From Bacteroidota bacterium (GTDB lineage Bacteria; Bacteroidota; Bacteroidia; Bacteroidales; Prolixibacteraceae): a stretch of DNA of 63,189 nucleotides. Below are positions 1 through 61,793 of the stretch, in pieces (position 1 is the first letter of the stretch; every line of letters starts with the position of its first letter). Both the position numbers and the translations under genes were made by a program. The stretch is from contig JAJUGZ010000010.1 of the NCBI GenBank assembly GCA_029265715.1, positions 1 to 63,189 of the forward strand, given 5' to 3'. The notes below the pieces were generated by a model. The model saw nothing but the letters and a program-made list of their open reading frames with translations. It did not search any database and was not told the DNA's origin.

Positions 1-269
1 AATAGGCCTAGCATATTGATATTCTTCATTGTTGCTCTTTTTTGTACTGTAAAATAGGCAATCTAACCATATATCCCATGCTTAAAATATTAACAATTAA
101 ACAAATATATTAACATTGGGTTTTTAGAGATGCCCTTAATTTTTGAATGCTATATTTCAGCTTCATTGCAGATCTAACCCCGCGTTTTCATCGGATTTTA
201 ACCAAGCATTTTTTGTGTTCCGGGCCGAAATCCATACATTCGGGGGCGAAAATAGTTTTGTAAACCACG

Positions 270-3756: not shown

Positions 3757-4830
3757 CTATTGTTCGTCAATCCGTTTCATAGCAGCCATCATAAAGCCCA
3801 TGGCATAAGCCATTCCGGCGTGCCAGGGAGCATCGCAGCTCATTTGGGGCGTATGGTCCGGAATCAGCACTCCCTCGTATCGGTTTGCTTTCAGAATTTT
3901 CAGAATCCGGAACATGTCGATATCGCCTTCGTCGATAAAAACTTCTTTGTAGGTCGGGACTTTACCTTTAATATTCCGAAAATGAATATAGCCGATGCGG
4001 TTTTCTTTGCTAAAAATGTCAGTCTTCTCGTAAATATCGCCTTCAGTCATTTCGGCCAGCGAGCCTAAACAAAACTCCAGTTGGTTGTTCGGGCTGGGGT
4101 TTAAGGCAATCAACCGGTGGTACAAATCGGGTTGATAAACCAGCCGGGGTGTTTTTCGTATTTCCGGCATGGGTGGGTCATCCGGGTGTGCGGCCAGAAT
4201 GACGCCGGCTTCTTCTGCTACCGGAATGATTTGTTCCAGAAATCCCTGCAATCGTTGCCATAGTTGATCTGAAGTGATTGGCTTTTGAATACGTTTTTTT
4301 GTTTTATCAATCCACATGTTCCAGACCATTCCTTCCGGAAGCGGGTTTTCATCCACCCCGTCCATCCCGACCGAGATGGCGCCGCCACGGGCATAAGGGC
4401 CTTTTACACGGCTGGCTACTCCGGCAATCGAAAAATTGTAGCCCAGGCATGGGATTCCAACTTTTCCCATGGTCCGGATGATATCTTTGACGCGTTCTAT
4501 CTGTTCTGCCTTTTGGGGGCCGTCGAGTAAAATATCGTGCCAGTGTGCCGGGTTCAGGTTTTCGATGGCATACCATTCCAATCCATAGGCATTCATTTCC
4601 TGTTTTAGCCGAAGCATTCCTTCCTCAGTCCAGAGAAAATCTTCTTCGGTATCGGCAATTCCCCAGCCATCGCCGGTGTCGGTTGGCTGGTCGTCGGTTT
4701 GCGCCAGTTTCTTTTCCTGCTTAAAATAATCAACTAAGTGAACGACCAGGTGGGTTGCCCCGCATTGCCGTGCAAAACGATAGTTTTCGGGGGTGAGCAT
4801 GTGGCGATACAGTCCAAATCCTAATTTCAT
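3757..4830 (-). CDS. uxuA: Mannonate dehydratase
   Basis: Dehydrates D-mannonate to 2-keto-3-deoxygluconate in glucuronate breakdown. The protein of 357 residues has the UxuA TIM-barrel pattern: N-terminal GFGLYRHML, HLVDY, a central YNFSIAG stretch, AAHPDDPP, then YIHFRN and PDHTPQM near the end, which carry metal-binding His and Asp residues. I chose the ATG at 4830 because the homologous N-terminus MKLGFGLYRH begins there; in-frame extensions (ATG at 4872, TTG at 4911) run into repeat DNA. An SDR oxidoreductase lies upstream on the same strand, the usual partner for making mannonate, but 279 bp of repeat sequence separates the two. The start codon coincides with the repeat motif ATTTCATCTGTA read on the plus strand. 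Confidence 0.92.
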   Translation of the reverse strand: MKLGFGLYRHMLTPENYRFARQCGATHLVVHLVDYFKQEKKLAQTDDQPTDTGDGWGIADTEEDFLWTEEGMLRLKQEMNAYGLEWYAIENLNPAHWHDILLDGPQKAEQIERVKDIIRTMGKVGIPCLGYNFSIAGVASRVKGPYARGGAISVGMDGVDENPLPEGMVWNMWIDKTKKRIQKPITSDQLWQRLQGFLEQIIPVAEEAGVILAAHPDDPPMPEIRKTPRLVYQPDLYHRLIALNPSPNNQLEFCLGSLAEMTEGDIYEKTDIFSKENRIGYIHFRNIKGKVPTYKEVFIDEGDIDMFRILKILKANRYEGVLIPDHTPQMSCDAPWHAGMAYAMGFMMAAMKRIDEQ

Positions 4831-5089
4831 CTGTAAATAATTTGTTTTTAAGTTGTCAGATGGAATAGCCATGATCCGGTTATTATTTTCATTATCGGTT
4901 GGTGTTTGCAAATCATGGCTATTTCATCCGTATAAATTTTCAATGTTGGTTCGTGCAATTTTCGTAACAGCTTTTGCTTTTCAATAAAATTCGCACCGGT
5001 ATGGAATTGAGCTTGCGAAATCCGCGAAGCGAATAGCCATTTGTACATTTCCGGTTGGTATAAGCTTCTGCTTTTATGGCTATTTCATC
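4831..5089. repeat. Stem-loop/spacer repeat array, copy 1 (units A and B)
   Basis: Two stem-loops flank a 72-nt spacer. Unit A has arms GATGGAATAGCCAT (4859-4872) and ATGGCTATTTCATC (4915-4928), a 14-bp inverted repeat with one mismatch and a 42-nt loop. Unit B has AATAGCCAT (5032-5040) and ATGGCTATTTCATC (5076-5089) with a 35-nt loop; its left arm is split by a 27-nt insertion (5005-5031) after ATGG at 5001-5004. The spacer 4929-5000 begins GTATAAATTTTCAA and matches the spacer of the second array at 61661-61732 in about 60 of 72 positions. Between the uxuA start and unit A, 4831-4858 looks like a shortened spacer. The array fills the gap between the SDR gene and uxuA. Confidence 0.85.
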
Positions 5090-5109
5090 CTAATTCTTCC
5101 TGAATGTGA

Positions 5110-5889
5110 TTAAAAACCAATTGAATTTCCGCCATCAACAGCCAGGGTGGCACCGGTGATGTATGATGCGGCATCAGACGAAAGGAAAACTGCAGCAGCT
5201 GCAACTTCTGCCGGAAGCCCGAAGCGGCCAAGCGGTGTGCGCGACAGTACTTTTTCTTTACGTTTCGGGTCGTTGCTCATGGCCTTTTGGGAAATGGCTG
5301 TTTCGATGAATCCTGGTGCGAGGGCATTTACGCGGACACCCCGGGGCCCCAGTTCGATGGCCAGCGTGCGCACCATGCCAGCCATTCCGCTCTTGGCTGC
5401 CGAGTAGGCAATAACCTGTGGAATGCCATAGATGGCAGCCATTGACGAGATCATCAGGATTGAGCCGCCGCCTCCTTCAATCATGTCCGGGAGCAATTCG
5501 TTGTTCAAAGCATGGGCCCCTGTCAGGTTTGTGCGGAGTACATTCTCAAATTCTTCGGGCGAGGTTTCCAGTGCAAATTTTTTCAAATGGATTCCCGCGT
5601 TATTTACCAAGACATTCACCGGGCGACCGTAGTGGGCAATCACCCTCTTCGACAGGCCTGGCATCCGGGAAAAATCGGTAACATCGATAATCTCATATCC
5701 CGAGTTTTCCCCCAGTTCGTTGCAGGCTTCCTGAAGGACTTCTTCCCGGCGTCCGGCAATAATGACACGGGCGCCTGAACTGATAAATGCTTTTGCAATG
5801 GCCAGCCCGATTCCGGAGCCGCCCCCCGTTATAAAGGCTAGTTTCCCTTCGAGCGAAAATAAATTTTGTGTTGATTTCTCTTCCATCAT
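5110..5889 (-). CDS. SDR-family oxidoreductase, probable mannonate/gluconate-type dehydrogenase
   Basis: A classical short-chain dehydrogenase of 259 residues. The cofactor motif TGGGSGIG is at 21-28, NNAG at 96-99, N121, and the catalytic S149, Y162 and K166 (YSAAK). It lies directly upstream of uxuA on the same strand. In Bacteroidota, SDR enzymes near uxuA often replace the canonical UxuB and interconvert fructuronate and mannonate, so that is the likely role. Substrate cannot be read from sequence, and a gluconate 5-dehydrogenase activity is also possible. Two adjacent ATG codons (5887-5889 and 5884-5886) can serve as start. A TACCTTTG promoter box lies at 5921-5928. Confidence 0.85.
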   Translation of the reverse strand: MMEEKSTQNLFSLEGKLAFITGGGSGIGLAIAKAFISSGARVIIAGRREEVLQEACNELGENSGYEIIDVTDFSRMPGLSKRVIAHYGRPVNVLVNNAGIHLKKFALETSPEEFENVLRTNLTGAHALNNELLPDMIEGGGGSILMISSMAAIYGIPQVIAYSAAKSGMAGMVRTLAIELGPRGVRVNALAPGFIETAISQKAMSNDPKRKEKVLSRTPLGRFGLPAEVAAAAVFLSSDAASYITGATLAVDGGNSIGF

Positions 5890-24845: not shown

Positions 24846-27032
24846 ATGCCGCGATTTCCCTTTTTTCAGCAATACGATGCCATGGATTGTGGCCCTACTT
24901 GTCTCCGGATGATTGCTGCTTTTTACGGGAAGAATTATTCTCTCCAGCAATTGCGAAAGTTGGCTCACATTACCCGCGAAGGGGTTTCGTTACTGGGTAT
25001 CAGCGATGCGGCCGAAGCGATTGGTTTTCGTACCATCGGGGCGCGCGTTACGCTGGAGCAATTAATCAGCGCGCCAATGCCTTGTATCGTTCATTGGAAA
25101 CAGGTGCATTTTGTGGTTGTTTACCGGGTGAAGAAAGGAATGGTCTACGTGGCCGATCCGGCTTTTGGGTTAATTGAATACCCGCTCGACGAGTTTAAAA
25201 AGCAATGGCTTTCGACGGTCAAAAAAGGAGAAGAGAAGGGAATTTGTATGTTCTTGGAACCAACCCCTTCGTTTTTTGAGCAAAAAGGAGAAACGGAAAA
25301 ACGTACCGGTTTGGGCTTTTTGCTCAGTTACCTGAAACCTCATAAAAAGCTGGTAAGCCAGTTGGTACTGGGTTTTCTGACCGGTAGTATTCTTCAGTTA
25401 ATTTTCCCGTTTTTGACCCAGAGTATTGTCGATGTCGGAATCAGCACGCAGGATATCAATTTTATTTATCTGGTGCTGATTGCCCAAATGGTGTTATTTA
25501 TCAGCCGGATGACCGTTGATTTTATCCGGTCGTGGATTTTACTGCACATCAGTACCCGCATCAATATTACCATCATTTCTGATTTTTTGATTAAGCTGAT
25601 GAAATTGCCTATTGGCTTTTTCGATACCAAAATGATTGGCGATTTGTTGCAGCGCATCAACGATCATAAGCGGATTGAGCGCTTCCTGACATCGCAGTCG
25701 CTGGGTGTGCTTTTTTCGGTATTTAATATTGTCGTGTTTGGAATTGTGCTGGCTATTTACAGCCTGAAAATATTTGGCGTCTTTATGTTGGGGTCGGGTC
25801 TGTATTTTTTGTGGGTTTTCCGGTTTATGAAAAAGCGCCGAGAACTCGATTACAGAAAATTTACCCAGCTGGCCGACAACCAAAGTAAACTGATTCAGTT
25901 GATCAACGGGATGCAGGAAATCAAACTGAATAATTATGAACGGCAAAAACGGTGGGAGTGGGAACGCATTCAGGCCCGCTTGTTCCGGGTAAATGTTCGC
26001 AGTTTGTACTTGCAGCAATACCAGCAAGCAGGGTCGGTTTTTATTAACGAAGCAAAAAATATCCTCATCACTGTCCTGGCGGCGACGGCTGTTGTTAATG
26101 GGAACATGACACTGGGGATGATGGTGGCTGTACAATATATTATTGGGCAAATGAACAGTCCGCTCGATCAGTTGATCGATTTTCTGTATGTTTATCAGGA
26201 TGCGCAGATTAGCCTTGAACGCTTGGGCGAGGTTCATGCTAATAAAGATGAAGAACCCGAGATTGAAGGAAAACTCGACAGTCTGCCGGCCGATCGGGGG
26301 ATACATATCTCAGACCTTGTATTTCAATACGAAGGGCCTCATTCGCCCAAAGCAATCGATCATGTTACACTTGATATTCCTGCAGGAAAAGTAACGGCCA
26401 TTGTCGGGACCAGCGGCAGTGGAAAAACAACCCTGGTAAAACTTTTGCTTGGATTTTATCCCCCCGTTTCCGGGGAAATTAAAATTGGGGAAAGCCGTCT
26501 GGAAAATTATAGTCAGCACTGGTGGCGCAGTAAATGTGGCGCGGTGATGCAGGATGGTTTTATTTTCTCGGATACCATTGCGGCCAATATCGCGGTTGGC
26601 GACGAGTTTATTGACAAAGAACGGTTGTTATATGCTGTCCGGATGGCCAATATTCAGGAGTTTATTGAAAGTTTGCCCCTGAGTTATAACACGAGGATCG
26701 GGCAAGAGGGTGTCGGACTGAGCCAGGGACAAAAGCAGCGGTTGCTCATTGCCCGGGCGATTTATAAAAACCCGGAATTTTTGTTTTTTGATGAGGCAAC
26801 CAATGCGCTCGATGCCCAAAACGAGAAAGTAATCATGGAAAACCTGGATGAATTTTTTGCAGGTAAAACCGTGGTGGTGGTGGCCCATCGTTTAAGCACG
26901 GTTAAAAATGCCGACCAGATTGTTGTAATCGAAAAAGGACGGATCGTTGAAACCGGAACCCACCGGGAATTAACCGAGAAACAAGGCTCGTATTTTACGT
27001 TGGTGAGAAATCAGTTGGAATTAGGTGGATAA
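24846..27032 (+). CDS. C39-peptidase ABC transporter (bacteriocin-type exporter)
   Basis: A 728-residue inner-membrane exporter of the peptidase-containing ABC transporter type, which cuts double-glycine leaders and exports the peptide. Domain order: C39 peptidase (about 1-140) with Q9, catalytic C15 (DCGPTC), H88 and D104; six-helix membrane domain (about 165-460); nucleotide-binding domain with Walker A GTSGSGKTT at 521-529, signature LSQGQ, and Walker B FLFFDEATNALD. All key residues are present. The HlyD-type adaptor follows after 25 bp. I find no double-glycine precursor peptide nearby, so the substrate is unknown. Confidence 0.95.
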   Translation: MPRFPFFQQYDAMDCGPTCLRMIAAFYGKNYSLQQLRKLAHITREGVSLLGISDAAEAIGFRTIGARVTLEQLISAPMPCIVHWKQVHFVVVYRVKKGMVYVADPAFGLIEYPLDEFKKQWLSTVKKGEEKGICMFLEPTPSFFEQKGETEKRTGLGFLLSYLKPHKKLVSQLVLGFLTGSILQLIFPFLTQSIVDVGISTQDINFIYLVLIAQMVLFISRMTVDFIRSWILLHISTRINITIISDFLIKLMKLPIGFFDTKMIGDLLQRINDHKRIERFLTSQSLGVLFSVFNIVVFGIVLAIYSLKIFGVFMLGSGLYFLWVFRFMKKRRELDYRKFTQLADNQSKLIQLINGMQEIKLNNYERQKRWEWERIQARLFRVNVRSLYLQQYQQAGSVFINEAKNILITVLAATAVVNGNMTLGMMVAVQYIIGQMNSPLDQLIDFLYVYQDAQISLERLGEVHANKDEEPEIEGKLDSLPADRGIHISDLVFQYEGPHSPKAIDHVTLDIPAGKVTAIVGTSGSGKTTLVKLLLGFYPPVSGEIKIGESRLENYSQHWWRSKCGAVMQDGFIFSDTIAANIAVGDEFIDKERLLYAVRMANIQEFIESLPLSYNTRIGQEGVGLSQGQKQRLLIARAIYKNPEFLFFDEATNALDAQNEKVIMENLDEFFAGKTVVVVAHRLSTVKNADQIVVIEKGRIVETGTHRELTEKQGSYFTLVRNQLELGG

Positions 27033-27057
27033 TATCCTATAAATTGTATCGGATAAC

Positions 27058-28377
27058 ATGGAAGAACAAAAGCCCGAAACAAGAATAGAATTAAGAAGCG
27101 ACGAGGTTCAGGAGATTGTTAGCCAGGTGCCGGGATGGACGGTCCGGGCTGGCATTACGATGATGCTGGGATTTCTGGTGTTGTTGTTAATTGGCAGTTG
27201 CTTTTTTCATTATCCGGATATGATCAGTGCGCGGGTTGTAATTTTGTCAGAGAACCCACCGGCATATTTGTCGGCCCGTTCAACCGGGAAAATAGATCAC
27301 CTTTTTGTGGAAGACCGTCAGATGGTCGAAAAAGGGCAGGTGATTGCTGTACTCGAAAATACAGCCAATTACGATGATGCTTTCCGGTTGGAAGATCAGA
27401 TAAAAGCGATGGAACCTTTCCTGACAACCTTCGATACAACGTTGATTGTTCGTTTGGATGCAGGCCTTCAGTTGGGAGATATTCAATCGGACTATTCCGG
27501 ATTTGTGCGGTTGCTGGATAATTACCTGACCTTTCTGAACCTGAATTTTTATCCGAAGAAGATAAAGGGGCTGAAAGAGCAAGTCCGGATGGATAACATT
27601 TATTACGACCGGTTGTGGGCGCAGCGCGGCGTGCTCGAAAGCGACCTGAAAATAGCCTCAAATCAGTTTAAACGCGACTCGTTGTTGTGGCTGAAAGGTG
27701 TTTTGTCTGAACTTGACCTCGAAAAGACAAAAGCTACCCTGTTGGAGAAAAAGTACAATTTTAATAAACTCCGGAGCGATTTGGCTGAAACACAGCGAAC
27801 TATTCTCGAACTGGAGCAACAGGTGGTTGACTCGGAAATGGAATTTGCCGACCAAAAGAAAAAACTTCAAAATGAACTGGTCGAATCGATGAATGTGCTG
27901 AAAAGCCGCTTGTCGTATTGGGAGCAGAGTTTCGTGCTTCGCACGCCTATTGCCGGGAAAGTTACGTTTACGAACTTCTGGACCAAAAATCAGCAGGTAA
28001 AAAAAGATGATGTTGTTTTTTCGGTTGTTCCGGAAGAGCAGTCCGAAATTATAGGCCGCATCTCATTACCGTTGAAAGGTGCCGGCAAAGTGCACGAAGG
28101 ACAGCGTGTGAATATTCGGTTCGATAATTTTCCATATATGGAATACGGTATGCTGCAGGGAACCGTCAAAAGTATTTCGCTTCTCCCGACCAACGATAAT
28201 TATATAGTAGAAGTTTCGGTGCCCCAGGATTTGAAAACTAATTATAATATCGCCCTGAATTTTAGCCAGGAGATGAAAGGCGACGCCGAGATTGTGACCG
28301 AAGATTTGAGGCTGATCCAGCGAATTTATAATCCGGTGAAGTATATTCTGAAGCATCGTATGGCCGAAACGAAGTAA
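27058..28377 (+). CDS. HlyD-family membrane-fusion adaptor
   Basis: A 439-residue periplasmic adaptor that pairs with the upstream C39 exporter to cross the cell envelope. It has a short cytoplasmic N-terminus, one membrane helix (about 37-58), a lipoyl-like half motif (KIDHLFVEDRQMVEKGQVIAVLE region), a long coiled-coil hairpin (about 165-285), the second lipoyl half (RTPIAGKVTF) and a beta-barrel region. It lies 25 bp after the exporter. No TolC-like partner is in the window. Confidence 0.93.
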   Translation: MEEQKPETRIELRSDEVQEIVSQVPGWTVRAGITMMLGFLVLLLIGSCFFHYPDMISARVVILSENPPAYLSARSTGKIDHLFVEDRQMVEKGQVIAVLENTANYDDAFRLEDQIKAMEPFLTTFDTTLIVRLDAGLQLGDIQSDYSGFVRLLDNYLTFLNLNFYPKKIKGLKEQVRMDNIYYDRLWAQRGVLESDLKIASNQFKRDSLLWLKGVLSELDLEKTKATLLEKKYNFNKLRSDLAETQRTILELEQQVVDSEMEFADQKKKLQNELVESMNVLKSRLSYWEQSFVLRTPIAGKVTFTNFWTKNQQVKKDDVVFSVVPEEQSEIIGRISLPLKGAGKVHEGQRVNIRFDNFPYMEYGMLQGTVKSISLLPTNDNYIVEVSVPQDLKTNYNIALNFSQEMKGDAEIVTEDLRLIQRIYNPVKYILKHRMAETK

Positions 28378-48712: not shown

Positions 48713-48841
48713 CATCCTTTAAGTTCGATAAATATGTGTTAACAGTTTTTCGCCGTACCTTTGATATAAAGAGAAAGGAAGTACAAGTTTTTTCATAGAT
48801 TAGGTTAAAGCAGAAAAGGATGGCAGCGACCATCCTTTTTT
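48711..48841 (+). ncRNA. Probable small RNA gene, copy 1
   Basis: A promoter-transcript-terminator unit. Conserved upstream block from AACATCCTTTAAG, then TACCTTTG at 48756-48763 (matches TAnnTTTG). Predicted transcript about 48769-48841 (about 73 nt), containing GTACAAG, a T run and CATAGATTAGGTTAA. It ends in a terminator whose stem AAAAGGATGG (48814-48823) pairs with CCATCCTTTT (48830-48839). The unit begins in the stop codon of the cupin gene. A second copy follows 198 bp downstream. No convincing protein is encoded. Confidence 0.7.
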
Positions 48842-48908
48842 GTTACGTGGATGTTTGATTGATCCAGAATCGGTTGTTGTGCTTTTTGCTTGATTCGTAA
48901 ATAGTTTT

Positions 48909-49046
48909 AACATTCTTTAAGGTTGCTAAATATGTATTAACGGTTTCTCTCCGTACCTTTGTTTCGAAGACAAGAAGATAAGTTAGTACAGTTTTTTTTC
49001 ATAGATTTGGTTAAGATGGAAAGGATGGCAGCGGTCATCCTTTTTT
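48909..49046 (+). ncRNA. Probable small RNA gene, copy 2
   Basis: A paralogue of the unit at 48711-48841. AACATTCTTTAAG is again 45 bp before TACCTTTG (48954-48961). Predicted transcript about 48967-49046 (about 80 nt) with GTACAG, a longer T run, CATAGATTTGGTTAAG, and a terminator with stem AAAGGATG (49020-49027) pairing with CATCCTTT (49036-49043). The copies share promoter, core and hairpin but differ in the first 25 transcribed nucleotides. hisS starts 97 bp later from its own promoter. Confidence 0.7.
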
Positions 49047-49082
49047 CTTTTATACAAATTACAATCAGAAGACATATATTCG

Positions 49083-59907: not shown

Positions 59908-61524
59908 TCAGTTGATTAAGATCTTGGTCGATATGGGCAGATGGTTTCTGAAATACATTTTAAGTACGTAAGTCCCGTGAGGGAGATCTGAAACCGAAAT
60001 TTTTTTGTCGCTTGTTTCTGTTACCCGACAGACTTTGGCCTTAGTTCCCAAAATCGTGAAGAATTCGATCAAATTCAGGTCTCCTGAACTTTCCAGATAT
60101 ACATATTCGGTTGCAGGGTTGGGAAAAAGTCTGTAGCTCAATCCTTGATTGTACACGATTGGTATGGTCGTTGCCGATTGTCCCGGCATGTTTTTATCGA
60201 GCCAGTTGATACGAGTAGTAATCCAGGTACGCAGTTTTTCAACTTCGCCGGAATAGGAATTCGGAATGGCATCAACTTCAGGCGCACCAACGTTTTGTCC
60301 CAGAATTGGCCATTGGCTGTAATGCCTGACTTGCGCTTCGGCAACCAGTGTTTTAACCGAGTCAATGTAATGGTTAATGTAATTGAGACTTAAGTACGAG
60401 TTTCTTAGTTCAAAATATCGCTGGTTAAGGGCATTGGCGAAATTCGGGTCTTGTAGTAACCGCACCATCCAGCCGGGCGATGTTGGCCACGGGTTGCAGT
60501 CGTTTAGCATGTAGCTCCAGCCCGAGCCATCGGTTTGGCTAAACATATAGCAGTCCCAGATGTTCTTCCAGGCCCAGTCGAAATCCCAAACCGGACCGGC
60601 GTGCAAACGGCCATCCTTGCTGTTTTTGTCTTTGTAGAAGTACTCGCTTTTTTTGAACGCATCAACGTTTCTGGATACTTCGCTGACAATGAAATAATCG
60701 ATAAACGATTGTACATCAATCCAAGCCTGGTATCCTGTTGCCGGATTCGCAAAGTTGTTGCTGTACAGAGTTGTTTCGAATGAATTGACAAAGTCTTTCA
60801 GGTAACTTTTTTGCTGGTAAACCAGTTCGGTTGGTTTAGGGTCATGATAAACAAAATATACGCTTTTCCCGGGATGATCGATAGGCGAGTAATTGCTCTT
60901 CCAACTGTTCGACGAGTCGTAGTAATCTACTTTAAAGATATAACCGCCTGTAACGTCGTCGCCTGAAATATCGGTCGTTTTCAGGTTGGCAATATTCACG
61001 CGCCCTTTGTCCCGCTTGATTTTTTCTGTAAAAACATAAATTCCCTGATATTGTCCGTTGACGAGCACTTCGCAAAGTTGGGTACGGGGAGCATAATGGC
61101 CCATTTTACGGAACAGATCGAAGGCCAGTGTGTTTCGCATAAATGATTTATCGTTGTAGTTGGCCAACAGGATCCAGTCGTTTTCGGCAGGCATTCCGAG
61201 CAGCGAAACATCAAAATTGTTCCCGTTTGAGTCGCGTGTTTCAATTCCGTATGGTTTTTGTGGCAGGGAGGCTGAATAAGACCCGCGTATTTCAATACCA
61301 ATCTTTCCATCGTAAACATTGCCCGGGTCGGTTGGCTTATTGGGAATCCCGGGGCCATTGCTGATTATCTTCATGGATGCATCTATTTTATAGGCATCAG
61401 GGATTGTTTTTCCATTGGTATTGATAATAATCAGAGGAAGGTTGGATGATGTAAATGCGGTTGTGCCGGCAATGGCACGACTATATACCAATCCGAATAG
61501 AAGCAGGAAGAGTGCAAGTTTCAT
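59908..61524 (-). CDS. CotH-kinase-family protein with T9SS C-terminal signal
   Basis: A 538-residue secreted protein: signal peptide (MKLALFLLLF..., ending AIAG), a CotH-type domain (about 70-430) with GIEIRGSYSASLPQKPYGIE, WILLANYNDKSFMRN, GQYQGIYVFTEKIKRDKGR and the metal-site-like GPVWDFDWAW, then a T9SS type A sorting domain from YRLFPNPATEY. CotH proteins of spores are atypical protein kinases, but the role of the many secreted bacteroidotal members is not established. The start codon sits exactly at the edge of a repeat array. Confidence 0.9.
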   Translation of the reverse strand: MKLALFLLLFGLVYSRAIAGTTAFTSSNLPLIIINTNGKTIPDAYKIDASMKIISNGPGIPNKPTDPGNVYDGKIGIEIRGSYSASLPQKPYGIETRDSNGNNFDVSLLGMPAENDWILLANYNDKSFMRNTLAFDLFRKMGHYAPRTQLCEVLVNGQYQGIYVFTEKIKRDKGRVNIANLKTTDISGDDVTGGYIFKVDYYDSSNSWKSNYSPIDHPGKSVYFVYHDPKPTELVYQQKSYLKDFVNSFETTLYSNNFANPATGYQAWIDVQSFIDYFIVSEVSRNVDAFKKSEYFYKDKNSKDGRLHAGPVWDFDWAWKNIWDCYMFSQTDGSGWSYMLNDCNPWPTSPGWMVRLLQDPNFANALNQRYFELRNSYLSLNYINHYIDSVKTLVAEAQVRHYSQWPILGQNVGAPEVDAIPNSYSGEVEKLRTWITTRINWLDKNMPGQSATTIPIVYNQGLSYRLFPNPATEYVYLESSGDLNLIEFFTILGTKAKVCRVTETSDKKISVSDLPHGTYVLKMYFRNHLPISTKILIN

Positions 61525-61793
61525 TCGTATAAATTTTCAAAGTTGTTTCTTACAATTTTCGTATCTATTTCTGTTTTTCAAACTAGTTTTTCAACGAGAT
61601 GGAATAGCCATTTATACATTCCCGGTTGGTATAAGCTTCAGCTTTTATGGCTATTTCATCTGTATAAATTTTCAAAGCAGGTTCGTAAAACTTTCGTAAC
61701 AGCTTTTTCTTTTCAATCAAATTAGCACCGACATGGAATAGCCATTTGTACATTTTCGGGTGATATGAGCTATGGCCCTTATGGCTATTTCAT
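61522..61793. repeat. Stem-loop/spacer repeat array, copy 2 (units C and D)
   Basis: From the cotH-like start codon outward: spacer 61526-61597 (72 nt), unit C (arms 61598-61611 and 61647-61660, 35-nt loop), spacer 61661-61732 (72 nt), unit D (arms 61733-61745 and 61781-61793, 35-nt loop). The loop of C matches that of unit B in array 1 at 32 of 35 positions. Period is about 135 bp. Each right arm reads GATGAAATAGCCAT on the minus strand, placing ATG-AAA-TAG where the gene has ATG-AAA. The remaining 118 bp to the next gene hold nothing I can name. Confidence 0.85.

Follow-up and report, generated by a model that had tools for sequence, protein, structure and literature searches.

Short hairpin elements behind TTCAT, often at start codons, in genomes of Bacteroidota

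Introduction

The window analysed here is a stretch of 63,189 nucleotides from a Bacteroidota bacterium of the family Prolixibacteraceae. Four similar stem-loops lie in it in front of two genes 56 kb apart, and the question arises what these hairpins are, how they came to stand exactly there and what they mean for the genes that follow. An initial annotation of the DNA had offered two answers, namely a mobile non-coding element or a family of RNA regulators.

Architecture of the two arrays

All four stem-loops are real and are found on the plus strand at 4860-4927, 5028-5088, 61599-61659 and 61733-61793. Three of them had been annotated correctly to within a few nucleotides; for the second one the start given, 5001, is that of the foot ATGGAA and not of the stem, since a 27-nt insert (5008-5034) parts the two. 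The arms of the window hairpins are ATGGAATAGCCAT / ATGGCTATTTCAT, and loops of 35 nt are present in three units, as the annotation had it. Read on the plus strand, the hairpins belong to two arrays of two units each (4831-5088 and 61525-61793), and TTTCAT directly precedes every unit. The layout is TTCAT, then a left part (29 or about 73 nt), then ATGGAA-stem-loop-stem'-TTTCAT.

Array 1 starts behind the target TTTCAT at 4825-4830 (plus strand), whose CAT reads on the minus strand as the start codon of uxuA. There follow unit A (4831-4927, plus strand, 97 nt), with a left part of 29 nt (4831-4859) and the hairpin 4860-4927 that ends in TTTCAT, and a unit B with internal insert (4928-5088, plus strand, 161 nt), composed of the left part 4928-5000, the foot ATGGAA at 5001-5006, the insert and the hairpin 5028-5088, again with TTTCAT at its end. 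Array 2 has its target TTTCAT at 61519-61524 (plus strand), with CAT as complement of the cotH start codon, and contains a unit B with a variant left part (61525-61659, plus strand, 135 nt, hairpin 61599-61659) followed by a further unit B (61660-61793, plus strand, 134 nt) whose hairpin 61733-61793 ends in TTTCAT. The 72-nt spacers 4929-5000 and 61661-61732 are identical at 60 of 72 positions, exactly as claimed before, and the remaining spacer pairs agree at 50/72 and 46/72. If the boundaries of the elements are taken as the measure, three units have left parts of 73, 74 and 73 nt and the first unit has one of 29 nt. An insert of 27 or 57 nt with a small palindrome of its own (GCTTGCGAAATCCGCGAAGC) between foot and stem is common to several units and to other species (5008-5034 in the window; L033, L035 and L040; L002-L004).

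Folded as single-stranded DNA and compared with 200 shuffles, unit A reaches z = -4.2 (0/200 as good), the hairpin 61599-61659 z = -3.6 (1/200), the hairpin 5028-5088 z = -2.5 (5/200) and the hairpin 61733-61793 only z = -1.7 (16/200). Among the whole units three beat their shuffles as single-stranded DNA to a varying degree (z -4.2, -2.9 and -1.1). Three units were also folded as sense-strand RNA: unit A is stable (z = -4.9), and the two long units of array 2 are no better than shuffles (z = -0.8 and 0.05).

Both arrays lie in the leaders of minus-strand genes, as had been stated, and end exactly at the ATG of uxuA (4830-4828) and of cotH (61524-61522); TTTCAT before each array is the complement of codons 1 and 2 (ATG AAA) of these genes. 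The first gene (3757-4830, minus strand), whose start abuts array 1, encodes a UxuA-like mannonate dehydratase (PF03786, E 5e-49, under the NCBIfam cut-off for uxuA), and its nearest named homologues include those of Maribellus luteus and other Bacteroidota. Upstream of it and co-directional lies the gene of an SDR dehydrogenase (5110-5889, minus strand). Without array 1 the gap between the SDR stop codon and the uxuA start is only 21 nt (5089-5109), and therefore array 1 probably stands inside an operon. The second gene (59908-61524, minus strand), whose start codon abuts array 2, codes for a CotH kinase-like protein with a T9SS sorting tail.

In the remainder of the window a Peptidase C39-ABC transporter adjoining an HlyD-type protein (24846-28377) is a probable exporter of peptides (bacteriocin-like), and two near-identical terminator-like palindromes of 37 nt (48808-48844 and 49013-49049) lie intergenically, 205 nt apart. 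A prophage considered for 28-49 kb was rejected, the proteins there being EF-G, SecY, RpoA and an ABC-F-like protein.

Copy number and spread

It had been held that the repeat before uxuA is shared only with the cotH-like gene, and a search of the genome and of relatives with a covariance model had been suggested. Such a model, built from the 61-nt hairpin, finds at least 150 matches in the source genome of the window (G000), at least 149 of them with E below 0.01; the exclusive pairing is correct inside the window and wrong genome-wide, and further copies are very many. An independent pattern for the left end is found 159 times in the genome; reversed as a control, it is never found. The elements are about 90-190 nt long, and several contigs of this genome terminate in or near a copy. 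The hairpin is present in 27 of 100 genomes of the family sample (own genome included) and in 16 of 294 other genomes of the order sample (17/295 with the own one). Viral contigs gave 0 matches to the exact pattern and plasmids no match. Rfam yields nothing at or above a gathering score in the window, the two arrays showing only sub-threshold matches with E from 0.05 to 5, and no published description of the repeat was found in a literature search that covered result summaries of mainly open-access literature. Apparently, these short mobile hairpins of non-coding DNA form a large and undescribed family in Bacteroidota.

The same genome contains the sister subfamilies D, E and Y, which have different left parts and stems; their 5' foot is mostly ATGGAA (with variants such as ATGAAA and ACGGAA) and their 3' foot is TTTCAT or TTCAT. 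Stems change in step across genera (TAGCC/GGCTA, TCGCC/GGCGA, TACCC/GGGTA, ACATCC/GGATGT), and the loop sequence around CATTTTCGGTT is conserved across them. In 24 aligned hairpins 96.8% of the cells are paired, against 33-44% when the arms are slid. The covariation that the initial annotation had expected in the arms exists as compensated changes across genera but is weak: 6 cells are changed on both sides, a number that 0 of 500 shuffles reach, yet they fall on 2 of 13 pairs only, and the count of covarying pairs alone is reached by 41/500 shuffles. The foot is nearly constant and therefore uninformative by covariation. A conserved upstream mini-ORF of two codons (ATGAAATAG) was considered and dropped, as some genera, those with the stem ACCC or CATCC, do not keep it.

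Insertion behind TTCAT

The insertion rule was read from 91 arrays of the source genome that have a recognisable left end and enough flank, the left ends being recognised without use of the flank. Set aside were 121 arrays whose left end was not recognised (in many cases the same near-palindromic hairpins read from the opposite strand; true copies with decayed left ends are pooled with these readings), 5 chains that start with an unrecognised unit and 3 arrays with too little flank. TTCAT closes the flank of 87 of the 91 arrays, where 0.15 would be expected from the composition of the window, and TTTCAT closes that of 69; the base before TTCAT is variable. In 18 TTCAT arrays the left base at -6 is not T, and the right end still has T there in 18/18. 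As the right ends keep their T where the left base differs, they have not arisen by copying of a 6-nt target, and most simply the right-hand TTTCAT is the element's own sequence. A 5-nt duplication of exactly TTCAT and an element-borne end give the same sequence; a duplication of 6 nt is excluded by all 18.

Left end (CYGTATAAATTTT..) and right end are not complementary to each other, i.e. there are no terminal inverted repeats such as define MITEs, and the left end is without a clear hairpin. The foot ATGGAA is complementary, with one G-T pair, to the 3' foot TTTCAT, which forms the last bases of the element itself and at the same time repeats the target sequence. Among the 24 aligned hairpins the foot is ATGGAA in 22 and AGCGAA in two insert-bearing units; the pairing ATGGAA/TTTCAT is found in the same proportion (22/24), too constant to covary. 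Both tandem and mosaic arrays are seen, with left parts and hairpins swapped between units.

A core-like TTTCAT that flanks the units, together with tandem arrays that fit exchange at a shared core, could also suggest site-specific recombination. A tyrosine recombinase or an RNA-guided one (IS110-like) would then use TTCAT as common core and the hairpins as recognition sites, comparable with attC of integrons. On inspection, however, no symmetrical arms surround the core at either end, and we regard this explanation as quite unlikely.

Preference for start codons

Of the 91 arrays 52 adjoin the first codon (ATGAA) of an open reading frame of at least 60 codons; 46 of these have an in-frame stop within 40 codons upstream and 6 have a more distant or unreadable upstream. 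The other 39 comprise 11 arrays behind another TTCAT-ended repeat, 24 that open shorter frames, being neither at a frame of 60 codons nor behind a recognised repeat, and 4 without TCAT. The family combines high copy number with a mostly intergenic position, as REPs do: one of the 91 arrays was identified within the 3' end of a gene (L017), the individual placement in relation to genes covering the arrays other than the 24 with frames under 60 codons. With the nested arrays and those without TCAT subtracted (91 minus 11 minus 4), start-codon placement amounts to 52/76. The control consists of the TTTCAT sites of the window, 75 after removal of 7 inside the two arrays, and 12 of these look like starts (p 5e-11). 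The strict rule, applied to the control too, leaves 46/70 at starts (p 1e-9). As the control is a single window that includes coding sites, part of this excess must be due to selection against insertions inside genes.

Ten host frames were named by profiles, some of them cut by the end of the stretch and several under the curated cut-off: eno, leuB, rhaB, accC, dnaN, recQ, rlmH, yaaA, a cobalamin adenosyltransferase and a KDG kinase-like protein. In dnaN, rlmH, yaaA, eno and leuB the first profile position is matched at residues 1-4 from the codon beside the element, which supports this codon as the real start.

In other genomes of the family a TTCAT standing 18-120 nt left of the hairpin opens a frame of 60 codons or more at 21 of 25 loci (L081 and L106 were omitted as duplicates of L005 and L004); in the same test 109 of 1720 random positions do so. 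The four misses are three hairpins that the script did not recognise and one true miss (L090). Other families of the order show 15 of 18 loci at start codons; here L370 is a true miss, L358 is cut by the end of the contig and at L357 the hairpin belongs to the second of two tandem units, the first of which follows a TTCAT that opens a frame of 132 codons. The element is thus inserted precisely 3' of TTCAT, is spread across an order and prefers start codons.

Such a position is also what a dispersed cis-regulatory RNA leader would occupy, riboswitch-like or acting on translation, which selection would keep before a regulon and rare copying would spread. The leaders of 52 of 91 hosts, the loop conserved across genera, the start-codon loci (15/18) in the low-copy genomes of other families and the good sense-RNA fold of unit A all agree with it. 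But the named hosts (dnaN, eno, leuB, rhaB, recQ, yaaA, rlmH, cotH) have no common function, and the idea of a regulon was given up as the ten scanned host frames proved mixed. Moreover, 11 arrays stand behind other repeats, one copy interrupts the 3' end of a transposase gene whose homologue is empty, the two long units that were folded show no unusual stability as sense RNA, the two-codon frame is lost in some genera, and the Rfam matches at the arrays (up to E 5) are far below the gathering scores of their families. We therefore consider a regulatory leader unlikely.

As to the effect on the host gene, the leader that the element brings is A/T-rich, with A at -12 and -13 and C at -3. The Bacteroidota-type promoter has the consensus TTG-17..24-TAnnTTTG. 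A promoter of this kind borne by the element was rejected, as none of the 91 first units contains it (shuffles: 0.14); its TAnnTTTG part by itself is present in 5/91, where shuffles give 2.9. In Flavobacterium A at -3 favours initiation (PMC6847099), so that the element leader with its C is not optimal there. Since housekeeping genes such as dnaN and eno carry copies, expression must be tolerated.

Evidence of movement and search for the mover

The only Y1_Tnp match of the source genome (L017) is a gene that a 134-nt copy of the element splits close to the 3' end. A homologue in G024, a genome of another genus, is uninterrupted, and its protein ends ..YDERYLWTD. Positions 1384-1923 and 2052-2165 of L017 match the adjoining parts 1961-1423 and 1428-1317 of L024, with an overlap of 6 nt, and the joined flanks of L017 read ..EYDEKYLWT across a single TTTCAT. 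This is a single case of a filled site with its empty counterpart, and it compares genera, not strains. Together with copy number, fixed insertion rule and tandem and mosaic arrays it supports the earlier suggestion of a mobile non-coding element.

The interrupted gene itself (L017 1384-2165, C73 of G000) has a motif that resembles Y---Q--HH and is flanked by palindromes of its own, one GCCCTGAAAGGGC-like and one CCCAAGGCG-like (CCCAAGGCG/CGCCTTGGG), which also flank the G024 homologue. Genes of this kind, subclass 1.2, are generally without typical terminal IS200 structures (PMC6006769). As one copy overlaps the 3' end of this gene, the repeats might be taken as the REP family of the resident RAYT in the ordinary sense. 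Its flanking palindromes are other ones, though, likewise at the G024 homologue, whose locus is without a copy of the present hairpin. For this reason the resident RAYT was rejected as the mover, and the chance that it explains the family is very small. A related element lies before the ATGAAA start of a Y1 transposase gene of another species (L176 857-924, C334 of G124).

That no transposase explains the repeat, as first annotated, still holds after a targeted, incomplete search. The search for Y1 genes gave 107 matches in 22 genomes, and at none of the 50 loci inspected is the hairpin the gene's own flanking repeat; the two family hairpins found there, at the L017 3' end and the L176 start, both fit insertion at TTCAT, and one looser pattern match in L023 was taken as chance. 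The second, YIHxNP-type of Y1 transposase has matches in 15 of 20 genomes, some of these without hairpin matches, and none in the source genome; 20 fetched loci contain no hairpin of the present family, and this type was dismissed as mover since the flanks that were read (9 of 11) show other palindromes or none. A Y2 transposase occurs in 5 of 14 genomes, the source genome not among them, and no hairpin of the present type in the Y2 loci fetched. TnpB was found in 0 of 10 genomes.

ISC/IscB (HEARO) transposons insert next to ATGA. Remnants of such transposons would stand on the same side of the same sequence, TTCAT being the complement of ATGAA, and like them the present element has a structured non-coding part. 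IsrB recognises NTGA targets (PMC9581776). Nevertheless, the element is much smaller, no HEARO RNA scores over the cut-off in 22 genomes (one weak match, E 0.2, in G095), Rfam gives no match over a gathering score in the window, and the RRXRR domain of IscB gave no match in 100 genomes, a test in which the control genomes were likewise without a match. An origin from HEARO elements is hardly probable.

Long autonomous copies were not seen in 20 stretches of the source genome, the only genome read in this way. On these stretches 22 left ends, taken from the first 100 of the 159, were followed onward. A right end comes within 135-192 nt in 8 cases and is missing from the available 0.1-3.4 kb in 13 (2 of them reach the contig end), and for one the next right end is 1.7 kb off in a neighbouring array.

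Proposed mechanism and relation to known systems

Since no mover was found among the loci searched, the mechanism is one that we infer. The reading we favour, with moderate confidence, is a non-autonomous element moved in trans and inserted 3' of TTCAT, with an HUH-type single-strand transposase as the probable agent. A transposase acting in trans on single-stranded DNA would cut after TTCAT, and the foot ATGGAA may act as the guide, by analogy with IS200/IS605 and REP systems. For IS200/IS605, and in part for REPs, pairing has been described between a guide that lies 5' of a hairpin foot and a short sequence in the flank or at the terminus (PMC6006769). By this analogy ATGGAA and TTTCAT would fit the IS200/IS605 guide rule, with one hairpin replacing two. 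As each unit supplies a new TTTCAT at its end, later units would insert behind earlier ones and so build up tandem arrays. TTTCAT is the complement of ATGAAA, a frequent start context, so that in sparse non-coding DNA many of the usable sites would be gene starts. Insertions inside genes would be removed by selection. At a start the element keeps ATGAAA intact and supplies the gene with a new A/T-rich leader.

A wider proposal is made tentatively, as a possibility with rather less than even chances. The elements may form a self-propagating class of single-hairpin transposons targeted to start codons, whose foot would pair with the flanking and with the own terminal TTTCAT, so that one hairpin would serve both ends. 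The leader would be swapped and the start codon kept, the translation of scattered genes might thereby be rewired across an order, and the mover would be a transposase not yet linked to such repeats.

The present element works like a REP or a non-autonomous IS200/IS605 derivative, yet its foot sequence is not that of REPs and no cognate gene appeared among the 50 of 107 Y1 matches screened. With REP/BIME and their TnpA_REP (RAYT) it shares short non-coding high-copy hairpins between genes, a tag at the foot and the lack of an own transposase (PMC6006769). It differs from them by the foot (ATGGAA instead of GT[AG]G), by a hairpin of 59-69 nt with a 33-43-nt loop plus a left part of roughly 30-75 nt, and by insertion at a fixed place, 3' of TTCAT and in many cases at a start codon, with no cognate RAYT among the examined loci.

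Non-autonomous derivatives of IS200/IS605 are known as PATE-like elements. Like them, the present family inserts 3' of a fixed sequence of a few bases, probably with no target duplication, and it may share with them a guide, 5' of the hairpin foot, that pairs with the end or target sequence (PMC6006769 for the rule). In contrast, they have a hairpin at each end where there is one here, the left end being without a clear one; the guide/target pairing here covers 6 nt and is continuous with the stem, and in the 20 stretches of the source genome no autonomous element with the present ends was found. MITEs and the pneumococcal BOX and RUP are likewise small, dispersed and moved in trans, but the present family is placed at start codons and is without terminal inverted repeats with target duplication.

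Mobile elements usually damage genes on insertion, and the present one often lands at the tolerable edge of a start codon. It provides a natural set of leader swaps for the study of initiation without Shine-Dalgarno sequence in Bacteroidota, is likely a new HUH-type substrate and offers an explanation for some contig breaks and gene-leader repeats in these assemblies.

Other repeats behind TTCAT

A second repeat family of about 150 nt, which starts with AAGTAAATATTGTTGT and ends with CATGTTCGTTTCAT, also stands behind TTCAT and is found at L032, L040, L076, L108, L109, L130, L134, L141, L146, L149, L152, L155 and L166. The present elements are often inserted behind its TTTCAT end. Two more hairpin families that end in TTTCAT occur in the source genome, one beginning with CTGTTTATAATTTGAT (L035, L041, L050, L071, L134) and one ending with CATGCTCATTTCAT (L037, L040, L067, L123).
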